Assembly: GCF_000725345.1 (NCBI RefSeq)
Contig: NZ_CP008852.1
Span: 1,827,693 to 1,891,692 of the forward strand
Source of the DNA: Pelosinus sp. UFO1
GTDB lineage: Bacteria > Bacillota > Negativicutes > DSM-13327
Direction of reading: 5' to 3'
Length of the DNA: 64,000 nt
Shown: positions 38,940-47,232 of the stretch, one piece after another
Numbering within the stretch: the stretch's first letter is position 1
How the letters are laid out: each line of letters opens with the position of its first letter
Notes under the pieces: generated by a model
What the model saw: the letters and a program-made list of their open reading frames with translations, nothing else
The model's database searches: none
Told to the model about the DNA's origin: nothing
Program-made: the position numbers and the translations under genes

Positions 38940-39458
38940 CTAGATGGGTTTCAATGTATTCAGAATGGCTTCGATGGCATAGTTAGCATATTCATAGTCA
39001 TCCTTCTTGCAGGAGAATATCAACAGAAAAATTTTCTTATCTCCATACAATGAGTATATTAGCATGTAATCCATGGGTTGCCCCTTAGGAATTAATAATT
39101 CACATGATTTGCCGTCCAAATTGCCAACGTGGATTTGTTTAATACTTCTGACGGTTGTTCCTGTGCCTATAGGTTCAAAACGTGCTCTTCGCATCGAATC
39201 ATTGTCATTAAAAAGAAGTATTGAACAATCAAGAATTGCCAGAGATGAATCTATTGATTTAAAGGTTTTTCCATCAAAATTCCAATCTGAGGGAACTAAT
39301 ATTTGAAATCCGTTATCAACAGTTATAAGGTTAGCAGATTTATTCAATACTGTGTCTTCAGAAGGGGATACCATTAATTGTGTTGTTCCTGCATGAGTGA
39401 TGCTTGGAAAAATTAGAAGAAGCAATGAGAGTATAAGCGTGCGAAGCAATTTGAACAC
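38940..39458 (-). CDS. Secreted protein of unknown function (moron-like)
   Basis: About 170 residues. A signal peptide (LILSLLLLIFPSITHA-G) precedes a soluble domain resembling the PsbP-like fold of the two other secreted proteins nearby (NGFQILVPSDWNFDG; Cys pair). The start may be GTG 39458 or TTG 39449. It belongs to a four-gene minus-strand set (38.9-41.3 kb) that interrupts the rightward phage operon. Confidence 0.6.
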   Translation of the reverse strand: MFKLLRTLILSLLLLIFPSITHAGTTQLMVSPSEDTVLNKSANLITVDNGFQILVPSDWNFDGKTFKSIDSSLAILDCSILLFNDNDSMRRARFEPIGTGTTVRSIKQIHVGNLDGKSCELLIPKGQPMDYMLIYSLYGDKKIFLLIFSCKKDDYEYANYAIEAILNTLKPI

Positions 39459-39571
39459 ATCCTTTTGTTTTTACCTCGAGTTTGTTGAGGTTGCTTATAA
39501 ATTGCAATGTAAGCAGATTGTATGGTAAGAGAGAAGTTATATTGGGGAGGGCGGGATAGATCAATTTGAGT

Positions 39572-40084
39572 CTATATCAAGTTATTCTTCATTGGTAGTT
39601 GTTCCACAGAAAGACCGGATCTGCTATTAGGAAGATATTTAACGCGATAATTTTTCCCCTCTTTCATGGTAGAAGTAAAAGGAAACTCAATATTTAATCC
39701 GTTTATTTGGACATATTCAGTAAAACTTTTACTCTTATGCCAGATCTTTTGAGGAGTTCCTTCAATATACTCGTAATTTCCAGTTATCAAAACGGGAATA
39801 TCTTTTATATAGGGGATACTAACCTCAATCATAAGAAAAACAAAAGCAACAGCTAAAAATAGGCTTATGGCCCGAAATGTTTTTGTCTGAAAAATTGGTG
39901 CTGGTTCTGCTGTCTTGTGATAACCAAAAATCGGCAATGTGTTAGCAGAGGGAATACGCATGAGCTTCTTATTGCCTCGCATACTTTCATTTCTGTTAAT
40001 GAATAACCAGAGACTTATTCCTACGTAAAAAATGGGTGTGCATAAAAACCATACGATATAAAGTAATTTCAACAACTGGGGCAT
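39572..40084 (-). CDS. Membrane protein, DUF3592-like
   Basis: 170 residues with two membrane helices (about 8-28 and 70-90) and a C-terminal extracytoplasmic beta domain with YEYIEGTPQKIWHKSKSFTE and YRVKYLPNSRSGLSVE, reminiscent of DUF3592. It lies between the secreted-protein genes, so it may belong with them. Confidence 0.55.
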   Translation of the reverse strand: MPQLLKLLYIVWFLCTPIFYVGISLWLFINRNESMRGNKKLMRIPSANTLPIFGYHKTAEPAPIFQTKTFRAISLFLAVAFVFLMIEVSIPYIKDIPVLITGNYEYIEGTPQKIWHKSKSFTEYVQINGLNIEFPFTSTMKEGKNYRVKYLPNSRSGLSVEQLPMKNNLI

Positions 40085-40186
40085 CTCCTTTTCGCATTAA
40101 GTTACTTATAGAGAGAAATAGTATGATCTTGTATTTCGAATACTCGAATGATAGCGGATCTTAAAAAGAAAAAAAGATAAATATCT

Positions 40187-40750
40187 TTATTGCACAAACT
40201 CAAAGGAGTTTAAAATCAATTCCATAATTTTTCGATTGTTATTTAAGTCATCGAGTGTTCCGCAAATACTAATATCATAACGGTTAGAGTTATGAAAAAG
40301 AACGTATCGTTCCTCAACAAATTTACTGTCGCTTAGTAAGGGCATAAGTACGGTTGCTCTAATAAAAATAGCTTTTTTATCTTTTAGGTGTGTAACAAAA
40401 TAATCAGCAACTATTATATCGGCCGATATTTTTTTACTTAAAGGATCTTCCTGAAAGTCTTTAATTAATTTATTAACAGATTGACTTGAAAAGACTTCAT
40501 CACTATTTATTGGATACTTTTGAACATCTACTTCAAAAGTAGGTATTGATGAATTGAGGGGATCTTTTCTTAAAGGGCTTAGTCCAATAATAGAAAGATT
40601 TTCAATTTTAAGTTGACTTACTTTCCAATCAGAGGGATGAGAAAATTTAAAATGGTAATCGTTGTTTTCGTACACGGTCATATCGGATGCAAAGGCATAC
40701 GGTAAACTAAAAGTTATAAGAATTAACACTAGAAATAATATGCGTTTCAA
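40187..40750 (-). CDS. Secreted PsbP-like protein (moron-like)
   Basis: 187 residues: a signal peptide ending YAFAS, then YHFKFSHPSDWKVSQ, the opening of many secreted PsbP/DUF1795-like proteins. No lipobox. It resembles the gene at 40768 in layout and follows it by 17 bases, so the two are one operon. Confidence 0.65.
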   Translation of the reverse strand: MKRILFLVLILITFSLPYAFASDMTVYENNDYHFKFSHPSDWKVSQLKIENLSIIGLSPLRKDPLNSSIPTFEVDVQKYPINSDEVFSSQSVNKLIKDFQEDPLSKKISADIIVADYFVTHLKDKKAIFIRATVLMPLLSDSKFVEERYVLFHNSNRYDISICGTLDDLNNNRKIMELILNSFEFVQ

Positions 40751-40767
40751 ATAAGAGCCTCCTCAGG

Positions 40768-41280
40768 TTACTTTAGTATTTTAATGCTAGATACTATCTT
40801 ATCAATAATCTCCTTTTCAGCTTTTATTTCATTATAGTCTCCAGAGTAATCGCCAGAAACATCCACGCGATAGTAATATTGAGAACTATTGACGTAATAG
40901 CTAAGATAGAATCTTTTTCTAGAAATACTAGTATATAAATCCCACCTAGCGTCTCTATTATCAATATAAGTTGCTCCGCATTCTTCTAATATAAGATCTT
41001 TTATATGGACTTTCAAATATGAGGTGTGTTTTTGAGCATTCAGCATCACATCGTCTATATTCTGGTGCCATATAGGTAACTTCTCGATCGTTATAATCGG
41101 GTAACCGTGTTGCCGCCTAGCAAGTAAGAATCCTTGTTTGCCGTCGTTAGATATTATCCATTCTTCTCCAGGAAAAGTAACGGTAAAATAATCCCCATTA
41201 TAAGTAGTTTCCTCTTGAGCAAATGTAGTAGGTGATAATAAAAATAGTAAGGCCAATATAAATAAGGCAATACGTTTCAA
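40768..41280 (-). CDS. Secreted PsbP-like protein (moron-like)
   Basis: 170 residues: a signal peptide ending TTFAQ, then YFTVTFPGEEWIISNDGKQG, again the PsbP-like opening. First gene of the minus-strand set; AAAGGAGATG lies upstream. Export from the cell suggests an action at the envelope of the lysogen. Confidence 0.65.
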   Translation of the reverse strand: MKRIALFILALLFLLSPTTFAQEETTYNGDYFTVTFPGEEWIISNDGKQGFLLARRQHGYPIITIEKLPIWHQNIDDVMLNAQKHTSYLKVHIKDLILEECGATYIDNRDARWDLYTSISRKRFYLSYYVNSSQYYYRVDVSGDYSGDYNEIKAEKEIIDKIVSSIKILK

Positions 41281-41344
41281 ATTAACATCTCCTTTTTAAT
41301 CCATTATAGCCAATAATCACCATAAATAATAGGAGGCGAGCATA

Positions 41345-41572
41345 ATGACTAAAGAAGAACTAGCGGAGATTCGTGGGCGGGGGGATAATTTGGCTCATAG
41401 TAGACAAGATATTCCAGCCTTACTGGACGAAATAGAACGTCTACAGAAAATAGAAGTTAAAGCAAAAGAAGTAATCAAGGTTATGCAGCCATGGTATTGC
41501 CAGATAGGTAAACAAATGCCTGAACCTATGGTAGTAGTAGAGACACTAAGTAATTTAGCAAGAGTGATCTAA
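41345..41572 (+). CDS. Small phage protein, unknown
   Basis: 75 residues, helical (ALLDEIERLQKIEVKAKEVI). AGGAGGCGAGCATA precedes the ATG. A GGGAGG/CCTCCC hairpin without a T-run follows at 41580-41602. Confidence 0.55.
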   Translation: MTKEELAEIRGRGDNLAHSRQDIPALLDEIERLQKIEVKAKEVIKVMQPWYCQIGKQMPEPMVVVETLSNLARVI

Positions 41573-41665
41573 TTTATAAAGGGAGGCTAAGACCTCCCTA
41601 TAGGTGTTTAATAAACACAGTCTTTGGAATGTAATAAAGTGAATAATGATGTGGGGGTATAAGAC

Positions 41666-42121
41666 ATGGATTGTATTAAGGAGGCAGAAAACTACTTACG
41701 ATATTACAGGGAACTACACCAAAGCATAGAACATGCGGATTATATGATTAGCAAGTTAGTAAACCAAACAGCACCTAATGATATGTCTGCTGTGTCTATG
41801 GATATTACAGGAATACGGGCAGGTAAGCCGTGCAATACACTGAATCAAATGTATCAATTACAGGTGTGGCAAGAAATGAAAGAGCGGACAATGGAAGAAA
41901 TTGCGAAGGTAGATAATGTACTTGATACTATTAGTCAGGACACAGGTTGTGAGATATACAGGAATTTATTATATATGTGGTATGTTGAAAAGAAGGTTAA
42001 GCAAAAGATTGCAGAAGAGTTGGGATATAGCCATAAGCAATCAGTGTATGAAATAAAAAATAAAGCAATTAAAAAATTTGCAGTGGCATTATTTGGTGTT
42101 TCAGCATTGGAAGCAATATAG
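41666..42121 (+). CDS. Phage late regulator, ArpU/RinA/DUF1492-like
   Basis: 151 residues. Helical, with a C-terminal sigma-factor-like helix-turn-helix (VKQKIAEELGYSHKQSVYEIKNKAIKKF). Such proteins switch on packaging and structural genes and normally sit just before the terminase. Here the 10-kb cargo region separates them. Confidence 0.7.
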   Translation: MDCIKEAENYLRYYRELHQSIEHADYMISKLVNQTAPNDMSAVSMDITGIRAGKPCNTLNQMYQLQVWQEMKERTMEEIAKVDNVLDTISQDTGCEIYRNLLYMWYVEKKVKQKIAEELGYSHKQSVYEIKNKAIKKFAVALFGVSALEAI

Positions 42122-42142
42122 ATTACACATACTCTATACGTA

Positions 42143-42180
42143 AAAAAGAGACGGTTTCGATCCGCCTCTTTTTGTTTTTT
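42143..42180 (+). terminator. Terminator after the late regulator
   Basis: AAAGAGACGG with CCGCCTCTTT, then TTGTTTTTT; it closes the rightward operon before the cargo region and also works for the minus-strand nuclease-like gene. Confidence 0.8.
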
Positions 42181-42233
42181 ATAGTGTTGTATTAATTCGA
42201 ATGGAAATTCCAGGGGGGGCCTTAGATATAGTT

Positions 42234-43529
42234 CTATGCGAAAACGTCCCTAATACTTATAGTAATAGGTTGTAGCTTAGATGGTGCAAGGCCTGACAAA
42301 TCTATAATATGAAAATGATAAGTTGTATTGTTATATTCCACATAGTCTTTATCAAGTTTAAACGGTACCCTGGATATACCAATAATATAAATATCAGTTA
42401 GTAAAGCAGGATAACCTGCCAAACGGTCTTTGTAGAGGTGTGATTGCGTCACGGCATGCTTTAGTTTTTCAATAAGTTTAGATTGGTTCATTTTCCCTAA
42501 GGACTCGCTACCGAATCCTATTTGTTTGAGTTCGCATAGAAAAGATTGATCTGGTGTAGTTAAGAGGGTATCAATCCGTGCGCCATTGAGTTGGGCTTCT
42601 GATATAGGATATAGACCGTGTAAAAAGGAAAACCGTTCAAACTCTTTCTGAAAAAATTTCTCGGAATATTTATCATTTTCTAAAATGGAATCCTCCCGAG
42701 AATAAAGCTCCATATAAGTGATAAAACGCTTAATTACAGCCTGCTTACTTAGATGAGTACTCATTTTGTGTTTGAGATAATTATATAAAATATCACAATT
42801 TCTAATGCATTCTTGTAAATCAATCTTAAATCCAGTGAATTCTTTATTAATATACCAATCGTAAATAGTTGCTAAATATTCAACTGATTTACTACCGCCA
42901 AAGCTATGTTCAAATAATTCTATTTTTTCGAGTTCATTTACTGATTTAGTCACTAATGAAACGGCTTCACCGAACGGTGGAGTATTCCAGTCTGCTTCAG
43001 GACATATTCCCTCTTTAATTATGCCTGGTATGCCTTGACCGTTGCCCAATAGATTACCCTTTATCCTAGACAATATTCGATAATCAAATCTTTTTATATT
43101 AGAACAATCTTTACAAAGATGTAAGAATTGTTCTATTTGCATAAAATTAAAATAATCTTTTTCATGGGGGCTCGGTAGCCTCCAACTATTTGTATCTAGT
43201 TCCCGGATCTTATTCATATACTCAGAGTTTTCCAAGAAAAAATTCCCGATTATCTGTAATGCTTCTTTTATTTTAACAATATTATTATTGAGGTATTCTG
43301 CTCTTTTTTGTTCGGTGATTCCTAATAATAAATCAAACTCAGCCCTCAATTCTGAGGTTGTAAGAATATAATGAACAAAGAAAATGACAGCCTCAATAAA
43401 GTGTTTTCCTTCTTCTTGCTTAAAATAAAAAGATGATTCTTGGATTAAAGTAGCTTCTTTCTCTATGCGCAAATAATGAAAATCTAGCTGGTTAATAAGT
43501 TGATTTATATATGATGTAATTGGCAACAT
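42234..43529 (-). CDS. Probable PD-(D/E)XK nuclease-domain protein, orphan cargo
   Basis: 431 residues. The C-terminal quarter has GARIDTLL, 10-12 residues, FLCELKQIG, the D...ExK arrangement of PD-(D/E)XK nucleases, followed by a helix with Lys/Gln. The N-terminal 300 residues are helical and unrecognised. ATG 43529 (GGGAGG 7 bases upstream) is preferred to the longer frame. TGTCGAAG lies 31 bases upstream. It is a single minus-strand gene between terminators, a typical arrangement for prophage defence cargo; activity is not proven. Confidence 0.6.
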   Translation of the reverse strand: MLPITSYINQLINQLDFHYLRIEKEATLIQESSFYFKQEEGKHFIEAVIFFVHYILTTSELRAEFDLLLGITEQKRAEYLNNNIVKIKEALQIIGNFFLENSEYMNKIRELDTNSWRLPSPHEKDYFNFMQIEQFLHLCKDCSNIKRFDYRILSRIKGNLLGNGQGIPGIIKEGICPEADWNTPPFGEAVSLVTKSVNELEKIELFEHSFGGSKSVEYLATIYDWYINKEFTGFKIDLQECIRNCDILYNYLKHKMSTHLSKQAVIKRFITYMELYSREDSILENDKYSEKFFQKEFERFSFLHGLYPISEAQLNGARIDTLLTTPDQSFLCELKQIGFGSESLGKMNQSKLIEKLKHAVTQSHLYKDRLAGYPALLTDIYIIGISRVPFKLDKDYVEYNNTTYHFHIIDLSGLAPSKLQPITISIRDVFA

Positions 43530-43662
43530 GAAAAATCCTCCCGAGTAGTTTCTTTTATCTTCGACATATAAAGAAAAAAACCTGTTATAGGAGCTACTCA
43601 ATAAGGAGGCTGTTCATTAAATCATACAATTCTTAACAAGGCGAAAAACTGGCGACGTTTTT

Positions 43663-43733
43663 TTGACTTTACCTGTGATAAAATGATAATAAGTTAAAAA
43701 AGATTAAGCCGCTTGTGATGGGCGGCTTTTTGC
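43663..43733 (+). promoter_or_regulatory. Promoter immediately followed by a terminator
   Basis: TTGACT (43663-43668), 16 bp, GATAAT (43685-43690), and only about 15 bases after the expected start a hairpin AAGCCGC/GGCGGCTTTTT (43711-43733). Either an attenuator for the gene at 43795 or a terminator of a lost gene. Confidence 0.45.
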
Positions 43734-43739
43734 ATTGCA

Positions 43740-43787
43740 GGGAAGTAATCCTTTTTGTAGAAGTATGTATGAAAATGGAAAAGGGGT
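43740..43787 (+). repeat. Cassette leader repeat R1
   Basis: GGAAGTAATCCTTTTTGTAG then AAGTATGTATGAAAATGGAA; diverged copy of the leader shared with R2-R4 (46020, 46524, 47289). Core TGTAGAA is 33 bases before the start codon. Confidence 0.55.
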
Positions 43788-43794
43788 TACTTAT

Positions 43795-44355
43795 ATGAAA
43801 GATAAAATATATGCATTATTAGCGATTAGCATTTTTGCAATATGTTTATGGTATTTTTATCAAGCTGCCATTTATGTTATTAATATCTTCGTTGGTTTGC
43901 CGAAAGAAATAATAGCTCCTATAATTGCAGGTATTTCAGTTGTTCTTGCAAGTTTGATTACTGTTATTTTGGGAAAATATTTTGAAAGAAAATATATAGT
44001 CAGTCAAGAACAACGAGTTAAAAGAACTCCGATGTATCAAGAACTTATTACTTTTATTTTTAAGTTGTTACCTGAAAAAGAAGAAGAAAGACTTTCAGAA
44101 AGTGAGCAAGTAGAATTTATTCGGAAATTTACAGAGATGGTCTTGCTTTGGGGATCAAATGAAGTTATTAAAGAATGGTCCTTATTTAGAACAAATATTA
44201 TGAAGTCCAGCCAATCAACAGATAATTTATTTCTTTTGGAAAATGTTCTTATTGCTATTCGTAATGATTTAGGACATAAATCGTCAGGAATAAAAAAAGG
44301 AGATATATTACGCTTGTTTATTAATGATATAGATGATTATTTGATTAAAAAATGA
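43795..44355 (+). CDS. Cargo membrane protein, unknown
   Basis: 186 residues: two membrane helices (about 7-27 and 42-62), then a helical cytoplasmic domain (KRTPMYQELITFIFKLLPEK ... ENVLIAIRNDLGHKSSGI). The RNDLGH segment resembles the HEPN-like end of some abortive-infection proteins, but weakly. AAGGGG precedes ATG 43795. A terminator follows. Confidence 0.55.
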   Translation: MKDKIYALLAISIFAICLWYFYQAAIYVINIFVGLPKEIIAPIIAGISVVLASLITVILGKYFERKYIVSQEQRVKRTPMYQELITFIFKLLPEKEEERLSESEQVEFIRKFTEMVLLWGSNEVIKEWSLFRTNIMKSSQSTDNLFLLENVLIAIRNDLGHKSSGIKKGDILRLFINDIDDYLIKK

Positions 44356-44367
44356 GTATAAAAATTA

Positions 44368-44393
44368 GAGCATCCCTTTGTGGGATGCTTTTC
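44368..44393 (+). terminator. Terminator
   Basis: GAGCATCCC/GGGATGCTTTT hairpin after the cargo membrane gene. Confidence 0.85.
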
Positions 44394-44535
44394 TTATGCC
44401 CAATTATACTTCCCCGTTTAAATATCATTATCACAAGAATGTATATCAGTGAAACCGATATACAGGAAACACAAAATTAATAATAAGAGTTCTTTAGCTA
44501 TATTGGATTTAAAAATAATTAAAGGAGATGTTTAA

Positions 44536-45114
44536 ATGTCTAGAACAGTAAATATCACAGAAGAAATCATTGTAGTGTCAGAAGGTAAAAAGGATATTGG
44601 TAAACTTGCATTTTTAGGCAATGACGGTAAATTTGATCCGAGTGTTATTCCAATGCAAAGTGTAAGTATGTCTCAATGTGGAGTGAATATGTCTGCTGAT
44701 TTATCGATACCTAATATTGCTTGGACAAATGTTACATGGGGGAAGAAGGAATATGATTCAGCGCAAATCTGTAATAGCGATCAAACAGGCTTTACAGTAG
44801 ATGCAGATGGACTGTATTTAATCGAGGCATCTGTTTGTTTTGAAATAAATGCAACAGGTGTAAGATATATTGGAATTACTAAAAATGGTTCTTTTATAGC
44901 AAACCAAGATCTACTAGCGGCACCTCAGCTATATTATAGTTACCTTCCCGTACAATATGTAGGTAGACTTAAAAAAGGTGATGTACTGAAAGCTTACGTG
45001 TATCAATCATCAGGTGGGGCGCTTAATGTTTTATCTTCTCCTCTTGGTGGCGTAGATCAAACACATCCCGGTTGTGCTCAACCTCGATTTACTTTAACTC
45101 AATTAAGTAATTAA
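44536..45114 (+). CDS. C1q/TNF-like jelly-roll protein
   Basis: 192 residues. The C-terminal 140 residues look like a C1q-like beta jelly roll: WTNVTWGKKEYDSA, GFTVDADGLYLIEASVCFE, RYIGITKNGSFIA, VQYVGRLKKGDVLKAYVYQS. Such domains occur in phage tail or capsid decorations and exosporium proteins. Its distance from the tail genes suggests a decoration or cargo role. AAAGGAGATGTTTAA precedes the ATG and a terminator follows. Confidence 0.6.
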   Translation: MSRTVNITEEIIVVSEGKKDIGKLAFLGNDGKFDPSVIPMQSVSMSQCGVNMSADLSIPNIAWTNVTWGKKEYDSAQICNSDQTGFTVDADGLYLIEASVCFEINATGVRYIGITKNGSFIANQDLLAAPQLYYSYLPVQYVGRLKKGDVLKAYVYQSSGGALNVLSSPLGGVDQTHPGCAQPRFTLTQLSN

Positions 45115-45122
45115 GAAGAATG

Positions 45123-45152
45123 GGAGTGAAGAGAAATCTTCACTCTTTTTAT
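45123..45152 (+). terminator. Terminator after the C1q-like gene
   Basis: GAGTGAAGA/TCTTCACTC hairpin followed by TTTTTA. Confidence 0.85.
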
Positions 45153-45188
45153 TTTTTGTAATTTACCATATGGAATTGAGGTGAAACC

Positions 45189-45353
45189 ATGATTTGCTTC
45201 ACAACCTGCGCCTGTAATATAAGCAATGATTGCATAAGAGCAACCTTGCATACTAAGTCTGCAAGGTGCAGAGATAGGACGGTGCCCAAGGATGTTAGAA
45301 AAAAAGAAAAGAGTAGTAGACCCAAAAGGGATGAAAAAAGTAAAAGCCATTGA
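45189..45353 (+). CDS. Small Cys-rich, Lys/Arg-rich protein overlapping the HNH gene
   Basis: 54 residues with five cysteines in the first half (ICFTTCACNISNDC) and a very basic end (RPKRDEKSKSH). GAGGTGAAACC precedes the ATG. It overlaps the start of the HNH gene by 62 bases. May be a zinc-binding phage peptide or a leader peptide. Confidence 0.4.
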   Translation: MICFTTCACNISNDCIRATLHTKSARCRDRTVPKDVRKKEKSSRPKRDEKSKSH

Positions 45354-45648
45354 CCACTGCGAAAAATGCGGCAGGATGTCAAATGGCTTTTATAATTTAG
45401 AAGTGGCTCATGTAAAAGGTAAAGGATGTAGTGGACCGGATATTAAGGAAAATTGTTTAAAACTATGTGGACCTGCATCTATGAGTATGGGGTGTCATGG
45501 TGCTGATCACAGGGGCGAGATTACTGACGATGAATTATTTGAAATTATAGCAAGGCGTGAGGGTAAGCCATTAGAGGTTATTCAAGAGGTCGTTCAGAAG
45601 GCATGGAGATTTAGAGAATATCGGCGGGTGATGAAAAATGACGTATGA
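45292..45648 (+). CDS. HNH-type endonuclease-like protein
   Basis: 118 residues. A CxxC knuckle (HCEKCGRM), then LEVAHVKGKGCSGPDIKEN, LKLC and GCHGADH, matching the His-Asn-His metal and catalytic pattern. HNH proteins assist packaging near terminase genes or act as homing/defence nucleases; terminase is 7 kb away here. The following pseudogene overlaps its end. Confidence 0.7.
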   Translation: MLEKKKRVVDPKGMKKVKAIDHCEKCGRMSNGFYNLEVAHVKGKGCSGPDIKENCLKLCGPASMSMGCHGADHRGEITDDELFEIIARREGKPLEVIQEVVQKAWRFREYRRVMKNDV

Positions 45649-46024
45649 CCCTAAGATGTTACCTGAATATATATCAGAGGACCTAGAAGCACCACACTAT
45701 TTAATTTAAGTTGTAAATTATGAAGAAGCAAGGGTGTCTAAAGTTGTGGGTGGTTATGAAGTCGGCTTTAAATCAGCAGAATGAAACTATAAGAAAGCAC
45801 TAGCTAAAGCTATGGTGATGCATAAGGATTTTAAAGTAGCAACTATTGTAAAGGCTATGGCTGAAAACGAACTATATGTGATAGAACAAGCTTCTCTACT
45901 AGAACAAGCAGAAGTATTATTGATTATGGGTAAAGCGGAGTTAGAAGGGCGGGACAAACAATATCAAGGTATAAAGAAATTAATTGATCTTGAGGTTCAG
46001 GAGCTAAGAACTTCTAGAGGATAA
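45638..46024 (+). pseudogene. Gene broken by two in-frame stop codons
   Basis: One frame of 129 codons starts MTYDPKMLPEYISEDLEAPH, overlaps the HNH stop, and runs to a TAA at 46022-46024, but is cut by TAA (45707-45709) and TGA (45782-45784). The last 80 codons are a helical domain (MVMHKDFKVATIVKAMAENE). No frameshift is needed, so the decay is recent, or the stops are sequencing errors. Confidence 0.6.
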
Positions 46025-46523: not shown

Positions 46524-46571
46524 GGATAATATTACCTTTTGCCGAAGTATGTAGGAAATGGTAAAAAGGGA
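46524..46571 (+). repeat. Cassette leader repeat R3
   Basis: GATAATATTACCTTTTGCCG then AAGTATGTAGGAAATGGTAA. The first 20 bases equal R2 exactly. Confidence 0.65.
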
Positions 46572-46572
46572 G

Positions 46573-47232
46573 ATGGTTATCATACCTACTGTAAAGGATC
46601 CGGACGGAAGCAATCAAGAGGCAGACAAGATTCCCGAAATATGCCCACATTGTCAATCAAGTATTTCGGTAAAACATATTATTAGTAAACATATAAAGAT
46701 TGAATCAATATTTTATCTGCAAGTAGTTTATTCTTGCCCTAATCAAAAATGTAAGGAGATCATAGTTGCGACATACGAATATAATAGCGGTCAATATTAC
46801 TTGCAAAAGATTGAGCCACAAAAATTTGTTGTTAGTAATTTTCAAAAAGAAATAAGCGATTTATCACCGCAATTTGTTAAAATATATAACGAAGCTTATA
46901 ATGCTGAAACGTTTGGTTTGTTAGAAATTTGTGGACCTGGATATCGTAAAGCCCTTGAGTTTCTAATAAAAGATTATCTTATAGAAAATAATCCTGATAA
47001 TGAAAATGATATAAAAACAAAAATGCTATCTCCTTGTATAAACACATATATATCTGATGTAAATATAAAGTTCTGTGCAGAACGTGCTGCTTGGGTAGGT
47101 AATGACGAAACACATTATGTTCGACGTTGGGATAATAAAGATTTGCAGGATTTAAAAATGTTAATTCAGTTAACAGTTAATTGGATTATGAATGAAATTT
47201 TTACCGAAAAATTTCGAAGTGAAATGCCATAA
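46573..47232 (+). CDS. DUF4145-domain protein
   Basis: 219 residues. An N-terminal zinc ribbon (CPHCQSS ... CPNQKC) is followed by a helical DUF4145 domain (LLEICGPGYRKALEFLIKDY ... VGNDETHYVRRW). DUF4145 is a HEPN-related domain often found in restriction and other defence loci. The start is uncertain: ATG 46573 is only 2 bases after AAAGGG and ATG 46558 lies inside the repeat. Confidence 0.75.
   Translation: MVIIPTVKDPDGSNQEADKIPEICPHCQSSISVKHIISKHIKIESIFYLQVVYSCPNQKCKEIIVATYEYNSGQYYLQKIEPQKFVVSNFQKEISDLSPQFVKIYNEAYNAETFGLLEICGPGYRKALEFLIKDYLIENNPDNENDIKTKMLSPCINTYISDVNIKFCAERAAWVGNDETHYVRRWDNKDLQDLKMLIQLTVNWIMNEIFTEKFRSEMP

Follow-up and report, generated by a model that had tools for sequence, protein, structure and literature searches.

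Introduction

The nuclease-related domain NERD belongs to the PD-(D/E)XK superfamily, and a domain of PD-(D/E)XK type is also carried by the defence protein Shedu (DUF4263). The motif QxxxY marks the RecB-type subset of the same superfamily. AbiN is a lactococcal Abi protein that is encoded by a prophage. It has been reported, in the portion of PMC10952713 used here, that NERD is listed among the domains of defence systems, namely Mokosh type I and Nhi-like. Prophages, along with other mobile elements, have been described as the main reservoir of defence genes in E. coli, and the P2 hotspots consist mostly of genes that are annotated as hypothetical (PMC9519451, in part). According to the same portion of that paper 12 of the 21 selected defence systems come from intact prophages. 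DNA-binding or cleavage-like parts are present in 11 of the 21, often as a distant PD-(D/E)XK similarity which is limited to a small region, and seven of these 11 act directly and not by abortive infection (PMC9519451, in part). PD-(D/E)XK domains were likewise found in 13 of the 31 newly validated DefensePredictor systems (PMC13092281, in part).

The present study concerns P0001, an orphan protein encoded in Pelosinus sp. UFO1 within a stretch of 64,000 nucleotides, which as a whole is called the window here. The closest described genes are the E. coli prophage defence genes with PD-(D/E)XK-like parts, i.e. the PD-T4/T7/lambda series (PMC9519451) and those of DefensePredictor (PMC13092281), which, as far as the portions of these papers used here describe them, share with P0001 the variable cargo position in a prophage and the short, distant PD-(D/E)XK similarity. 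P0001 differs from them in coming from another host group and in having no match in PADLOC-DB, a comparison made with family models and not with each protein. It also differs from Shedu, as there was no Shedu or DUF4263 model among the matches of the protein or its fragments. On the basis of its sequence and its location, we tentatively propose that P0001 may be a prophage cargo ('moron') gene for defence with a probable nuclease at its C-terminus.

Results

P0001 sits in a prophage. Its genes in the window begin with an integrase (about 30.9 kb) and go on with a repressor-like regulator, a Rep protein similar to those of rolling-circle type, SSB and the ArpU-like regulator; further along come the terminases (52.5-55.0 kb) and a portal (55.2 kb). 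An open frame lies on the minus strand exactly at 42234-43529, where the initial annotation had placed the gene. From the ATG at 43529 the ORF listing and the translation give 431 aa, which can be divided into an N-terminal part of about 280 residues and a C-terminal candidate PD-(D/E)XK domain (residues ~284-431). A GGGAGG ribosome-binding site stands directly 5' of this ATG; a longer start, TTG at 43601, 72 bases further up, is also open. The codon log-odds per codon is +0.11 in frame and negative in the remaining five frames, and it matches that of the neighbouring genes, while the G+C content is 32.8% as compared to 37.7% for the window. The gene had also been said to have its own terminator, and indeed a 12-bp hairpin followed by a U-run is found downstream of it on its strand (42136..42178, -15.1 kcal/mol, z -4.7), with 0 of 200 shuffles as good. 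The hairpin folds on both strands; the plus-strand form, which would serve as the terminator of the ArpU-like gene, is less stable (-11.6 kcal/mol). Because of the ribosome-binding site, the native-like codon use and the strong hairpin terminator, P0001 is judged to be a real gene. It is hardly credible that it is a decaying or non-functional reading frame. The absence of relatives in the searches made would suit such a frame, but an uninterrupted run of 431 codons, codon use in keeping with the neighbours, a ribosome-binding site and a terminator all speak against it.

The initial annotation had further ascribed to the gene an element of its own, and this part was not upheld. No promoter-like site was reported on the minus strand in the 130 bases upstream (43530-43660), and the promoter-like site (TTGACT-16-GATAAT) and hairpin at 43650-43735 are on the plus strand, upstream of the divergent AbiN-like gene; they precede the genes to the right and recur in the genus. 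Because P0001 has its own strand and its own terminator, it could be expressed independently of the lytic operon.

The plus-strand element is part of a leader of about 200 nt (43650-43705 and 44382-44535), which consists of the promoter-like site, the hairpin and a conserved stretch with an inverted repeat, TGTATATC...GATATACA. This leader recurs in the genus 5' of small genes which by eye look like those for surface or tail-collar proteins, and in the window its promoter part is separated from the remainder by the AbiN-like gene. The small gene after it (44536..45114, plus strand) matches PHROG 13989 'virion structural protein' (E 2e-17) and, below threshold, BclA_C (E 0.008) and TNF (E 0.15) in Pfam. 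Gene and leader together have a second copy in the chromosome, at G000:C1:4907104-4907894, with 93% identity. A search of 41000-46000 in Rfam at E 1 yielded four matches, none of which reached its gathering score; they are regarded as chance.

The interval in which P0001 is found is bordered on the left by a phage transcription regulator (41666..42121, plus strand; PHROG 36, E 5e-14, and PHROG 248), which we take to be ArpU-like, and on the right by an HNH-like gene (45292..45648, plus strand) with a weak match to PHROG 740 (E 0.001). P0001 is therefore on the opposite strand to the late regulator, as had been annotated. The earlier description of a gene standing alone between this regulator and other cargo overstated the isolation, since the 3.17 kb between regulator and HNH-like gene are shared with the divergent 186-aa AbiN-like protein and the small virion-/surface-protein-like gene.

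The size of the interval was compared in five loci, namely the window, G006, L092, L090 and G008. In G006, of the same genus, 0.35 kb with a 66-aa frame separate the ArpU-like gene (protein identity 66%) from the HNH-like gene (88%). The metagenomic contig L092 (regulator 79%, HNH-like protein 92%) has an interval of 1.65 kb containing two small plus-strand frames, by eye like the surface-type genes found elsewhere. In L090 (regulator 73%; 40% over part of the HNH-like protein) the interval does not exceed about 0.39 kb. In G008 the place of the regulator is taken by a 165-aa gene which has no tblastn match to it, and the gap is 0.22 kb. This set leaves out L094-L096 and L098, which have the HNH-like gene and no regulator match, the short L097 and L099, and L093. 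P0001 gave no tblastn match at E 0.001 in 11 related loci (L034, L035, L090 and L092-L099), of which L093 is an apparent duplicate of the G006 contig. The interval between regulator and HNH-like gene is a variable cargo slot between related prophages, because it ranges from 0.22 to 3.17 kb with differing content in the five loci and P0001 is present only in the window. P0001 is an accessory gene in a variable prophage locus.

Some other frames of the prophage deserve mention in their own right. Four minus-strand frames lie between SSB and the ArpU-like gene (38940-41280). Three of them have starts that by eye are like signal peptides, two of these sharing an 'SDW' region, and partial DNA copies of the stretch occur elsewhere in the genus. 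These frames are possibly lysogenic-conversion genes. The plus-strand frame 46558-47232 strongly matches PHROG 1305, a 'DNA binding protein' (E 2e-40), and has Zn-ribbon-like cysteines at its start.

Relatives of P0001 were searched for widely. The whole protein matched nothing in Pfam up to E 1, in PHROGs up to E 0.1, or in PADLOC, NCBIfam and the PDB up to E 10. In PADLOC-DB 2.0.0 it matched 0 families at E 10, so that it falls into none of the known defence families of that library, and four fragments of it gave a single weak match there, to Specificity_I (E 0.055). In its own genome (one contig of 5,115,410 bases) the only match was P0001 itself. No relatives were found in 10 genomes of the order, in 380 genomes of the class, in further classes of 82, 59 and 26 genomes (empty results without a positive control) or in GTDB contigs. 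These genome groups overlap, and the peptide-pattern scans that were used detect close relatives only. The phylum sample of 398 genomes gave 10 hits besides G000, at E 0.012-0.075; two of these were opened and were by eye in a glycosyltransferase gene and in MurG, and looked like chance. In IMG/VR each of four protein queries found only one 48-kb record, which is 100% identical to P0001 and presumably comes from the same genome, hence is not independent. A DNA-motif search of IMG/VR found this record again and one further match, which has a stop inside and was put down to chance. By tblastn against phages and plasmids the whole protein gave nothing at E 1, and the C-terminal domain gave two records in each collection at E 7-8. 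The phage hits (E 7) were in an unrelated PaaA gene; of the plasmid hits one is annotated as a nuclease-related-domain (NERD) protein and the other as AAA. Matches of P0001 fragments to PHROGs of unknown function (E 0.026-0.29), and of the domain to mL81 and an AP2 factor (three chains) in the PDB (E 0.13-0.65), were regarded as chance. In short the sequence of P0001 matches no library searched; its kind, if it is defence cargo carried by a prophage, is already known.

The candidate catalytic core of the C-terminal domain is D320...E333-L-K335 (residues 320-335; 42525..42572, minus strand), and it is followed by QSHLY (residues 362-366; 42432..42446, minus strand), a candidate for the RecB-type QxxxY motif. 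The full spacing is D320-x(12)-E333-L-K335-x(26)-QxxxY. The D...ELK core of the initial annotation is therefore present, in hydrophobic stretches and with Q362xxxY366 after the ExK strand, as letters. As an indication of a nuclease D...ELK alone is weak. The letters are in the right order, but D...[DE]xK in a hydrophobic context was by itself found in 2259 of 20000 shuffles of P0001 (11%). The longer pattern D...ExK...QxxxY occurred in 137 of 20000 shuffles (0.7%), and in 94 of 20000 when the upstream E was included.

Three fragments of the C-terminal domain were compared with Pfam to E 10 and found only two families, PDDEXK_9 (PF08011; E 0.03-0.08) and NERD (PF08378; E 0.10-0.15). The PDDEXK_9 match runs over the E...D...ELK region with 13.4-14.7 bits against a cut-off of 25.5, and the best NERD match has 13.6 bits where the cut-off is 22.1, so that no significant profile match to a PD-(D/E)XK member family was obtained with the domain. 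Control queries, namely six shuffled versions of the domain and its reverse, produced four weak hits, the best at E 0.031, none of them to PD-(D/E)XK families. Three fragments from the N-terminal part found three unrelated families (E 0.04-0.15), which were regarded as chance. The strength of the PDDEXK_9 and NERD hits is thus uninformative, since chance hits are as strong; what is suggestive is their identity, both being of the PD-(D/E)XK kind.

Profiles were made from class members, the NERD profile from 19 of 30 class loci and the PDDEXK_9 profile from eight of 10 loci, after removal of near duplicates, of matches that were short or partial and of loci with cut flanks. The hhalign controls were 150 shuffles and 162 chunks, the latter taken from 25 other window proteins together with seven chunks of the P0001 N-terminal part. 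The short core alignment to the NERD profile places D320, E333 and K335 of P0001 on the D, E and K of NERD. Its probability is only 1.3%, or 0.4% when the whole protein is used; 3 of the 150 shuffles and 7 of the 162 chunks equalled or surpassed it. The home-made PDDEXK_9 profile gave no signal: as good a score was reached by 52 of the 150 shuffles and by 76 of the 162 chunks. The NERD-annotated plasmid protein (E 7 in the collection search) is 33% identical to the P0001 core over 66 columns. P0001 thus resembles NERD proteins in its core but differs from them in its sub-threshold score, in containing no other known domain and in having a long N-terminal region of its own.

Structure prediction by AlphaFold was run without homologs, and the alignment was not padded with presumed nuclease relatives, as this would assume the answer. 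The mean pLDDT was 35 for whole P0001 and 49 for the C-terminal domain; models of this quality are unusable and speak neither for nor against the nuclease fold, so that the refuting result named in the initial annotation, a structure lacking that fold, was not obtained. One Foldseek search gave 37 matches, all at E >1 and none at E 0.001 or better. The core had been described as following a helical region of 300 residues, but what supports the word helical is a model with pLDDT <50 at 431 of 431 residues. It is our judgement, and not a computed value, that the C-terminal domain probably has the PD-(D/E)XK fold.

The divergent neighbour (43795..44355, plus strand; 186 aa from ATG) has hydrophobic N-terminal segments, which are candidate TM helices. 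It was searched as 43798-44352, without the first Met. It resembles AbiN of PADLOC over 97 residues at E 0.0045, but this score is weak, the hydrophobic segments are a point of difference, and its relative in G320 has no hit at E 0.001 in PADLOC, AbiN included. This relative, the only one at E 0.001 among the 380 class genomes, has 34% identity (E 1e-25). On one side of it is a GajA/GajB pair (E 4e-110 and 8e-47) and on the other a pair made up of a methyltransferase and a restriction enzyme of type II (E 5e-122 and 2e-126); HsdR of type I (E 3e-176) is close by. P0001 has no match within 13 kb around it (L100). At the edge of the G320 cluster (L100:594-12969) there are also two proteins, of 182 and 382 aa, without a PADLOC match at E 0.001. 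The link to defence is one of guilt by association for the neighbour, and for P0001 it is only indirect.

Discussion

The present study describes a real gene in a variable cargo slot of a prophage, the product of which probably ends in a PD-(D/E)XK domain. P0001 could instead be an orphan prophage cargo protein which is not a nuclease, with a coincidental D...ELK, and whose role may lie in superinfection exclusion, in regulation or in lysogenic conversion by other means. The frequency of D...ELK among shuffles would fit a coincidence, as would the lack of family or fold support above threshold and a PDDEXK_9 profile that performed no better than chance. However, both weak Pfam hits and the NERD alignment land on the same core, and QxxxY follows that core at a plausible spacing, so we consider a coincidence somewhat unlikely. 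If the domain is a nuclease, it could serve the phage itself, in recombination, host DNA degradation or DNA processing. The gene is encoded in a phage, beside the late regulator, as such an enzyme might be, but it runs antisense to the lytic genes next to it and ends at a terminator of its own. Moreover P0001 is unmatched in related loci with the same borders, and it is therefore probably dispensable for the phage cycle. A nuclease of the phage's own is for these reasons distinctly improbable.

The role of the neighbour has to be considered in the same context. P0001 and the divergent AbiN-like protein adjoin in one interval, neither gene is matched in related loci, and the relative of the neighbour is inside a defence cluster, all of which would be expected if the two formed a single system, for example of a nuclease effector and a membrane sensor. 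They are on opposite strands, however, the relative in G320 has no P0001 match within 13 kb, and the promoter-like element of the neighbour recurs before other genes as well. A two-gene system is thus very doubtful. It is unlikely, yet rather less so, that P0001 is the first member of a new defence family in which a long N-terminal sensor is fused to a PD-(D/E)XK effector, and which either has diverged too far to be detected by sequence or is limited to a single lineage of prophages. Such a protein might act alone or with the AbiN-like protein.

The reading that we tentatively prefer is that of a prophage-borne defence gene which could be active in the lysogen, and it agrees in part with the initial annotation, which had seen in the orphan PD-(D/E)XK protein a possible single-gene defence. 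The variable site and the defence-cluster relative of the neighbour are consistent with this idea, but the nuclease fold was not demonstrated by AlphaFold and Foldseek. As a defence protein, P0001 would probably protect the lysogen against other phages and thereby the prophage as well. The N-terminal region would sense the infection or regulate the activity of the protein. In the PD-(D/E)XK domain a metal would be held by D320 and E333, and K335 would be catalytic. The domain would then cut nucleic acid, either the invading DNA directly or in a suicidal response.

P0001 is a single sequence without relatives and by itself settles no open question. Since its end is nuclease-like and the cargo slot that holds it has been mapped, this orphan is a cheap candidate to test, and the slot between the ArpU-like regulator and the HNH-like gene is a place in which to seek more cargo in this bacterial group.
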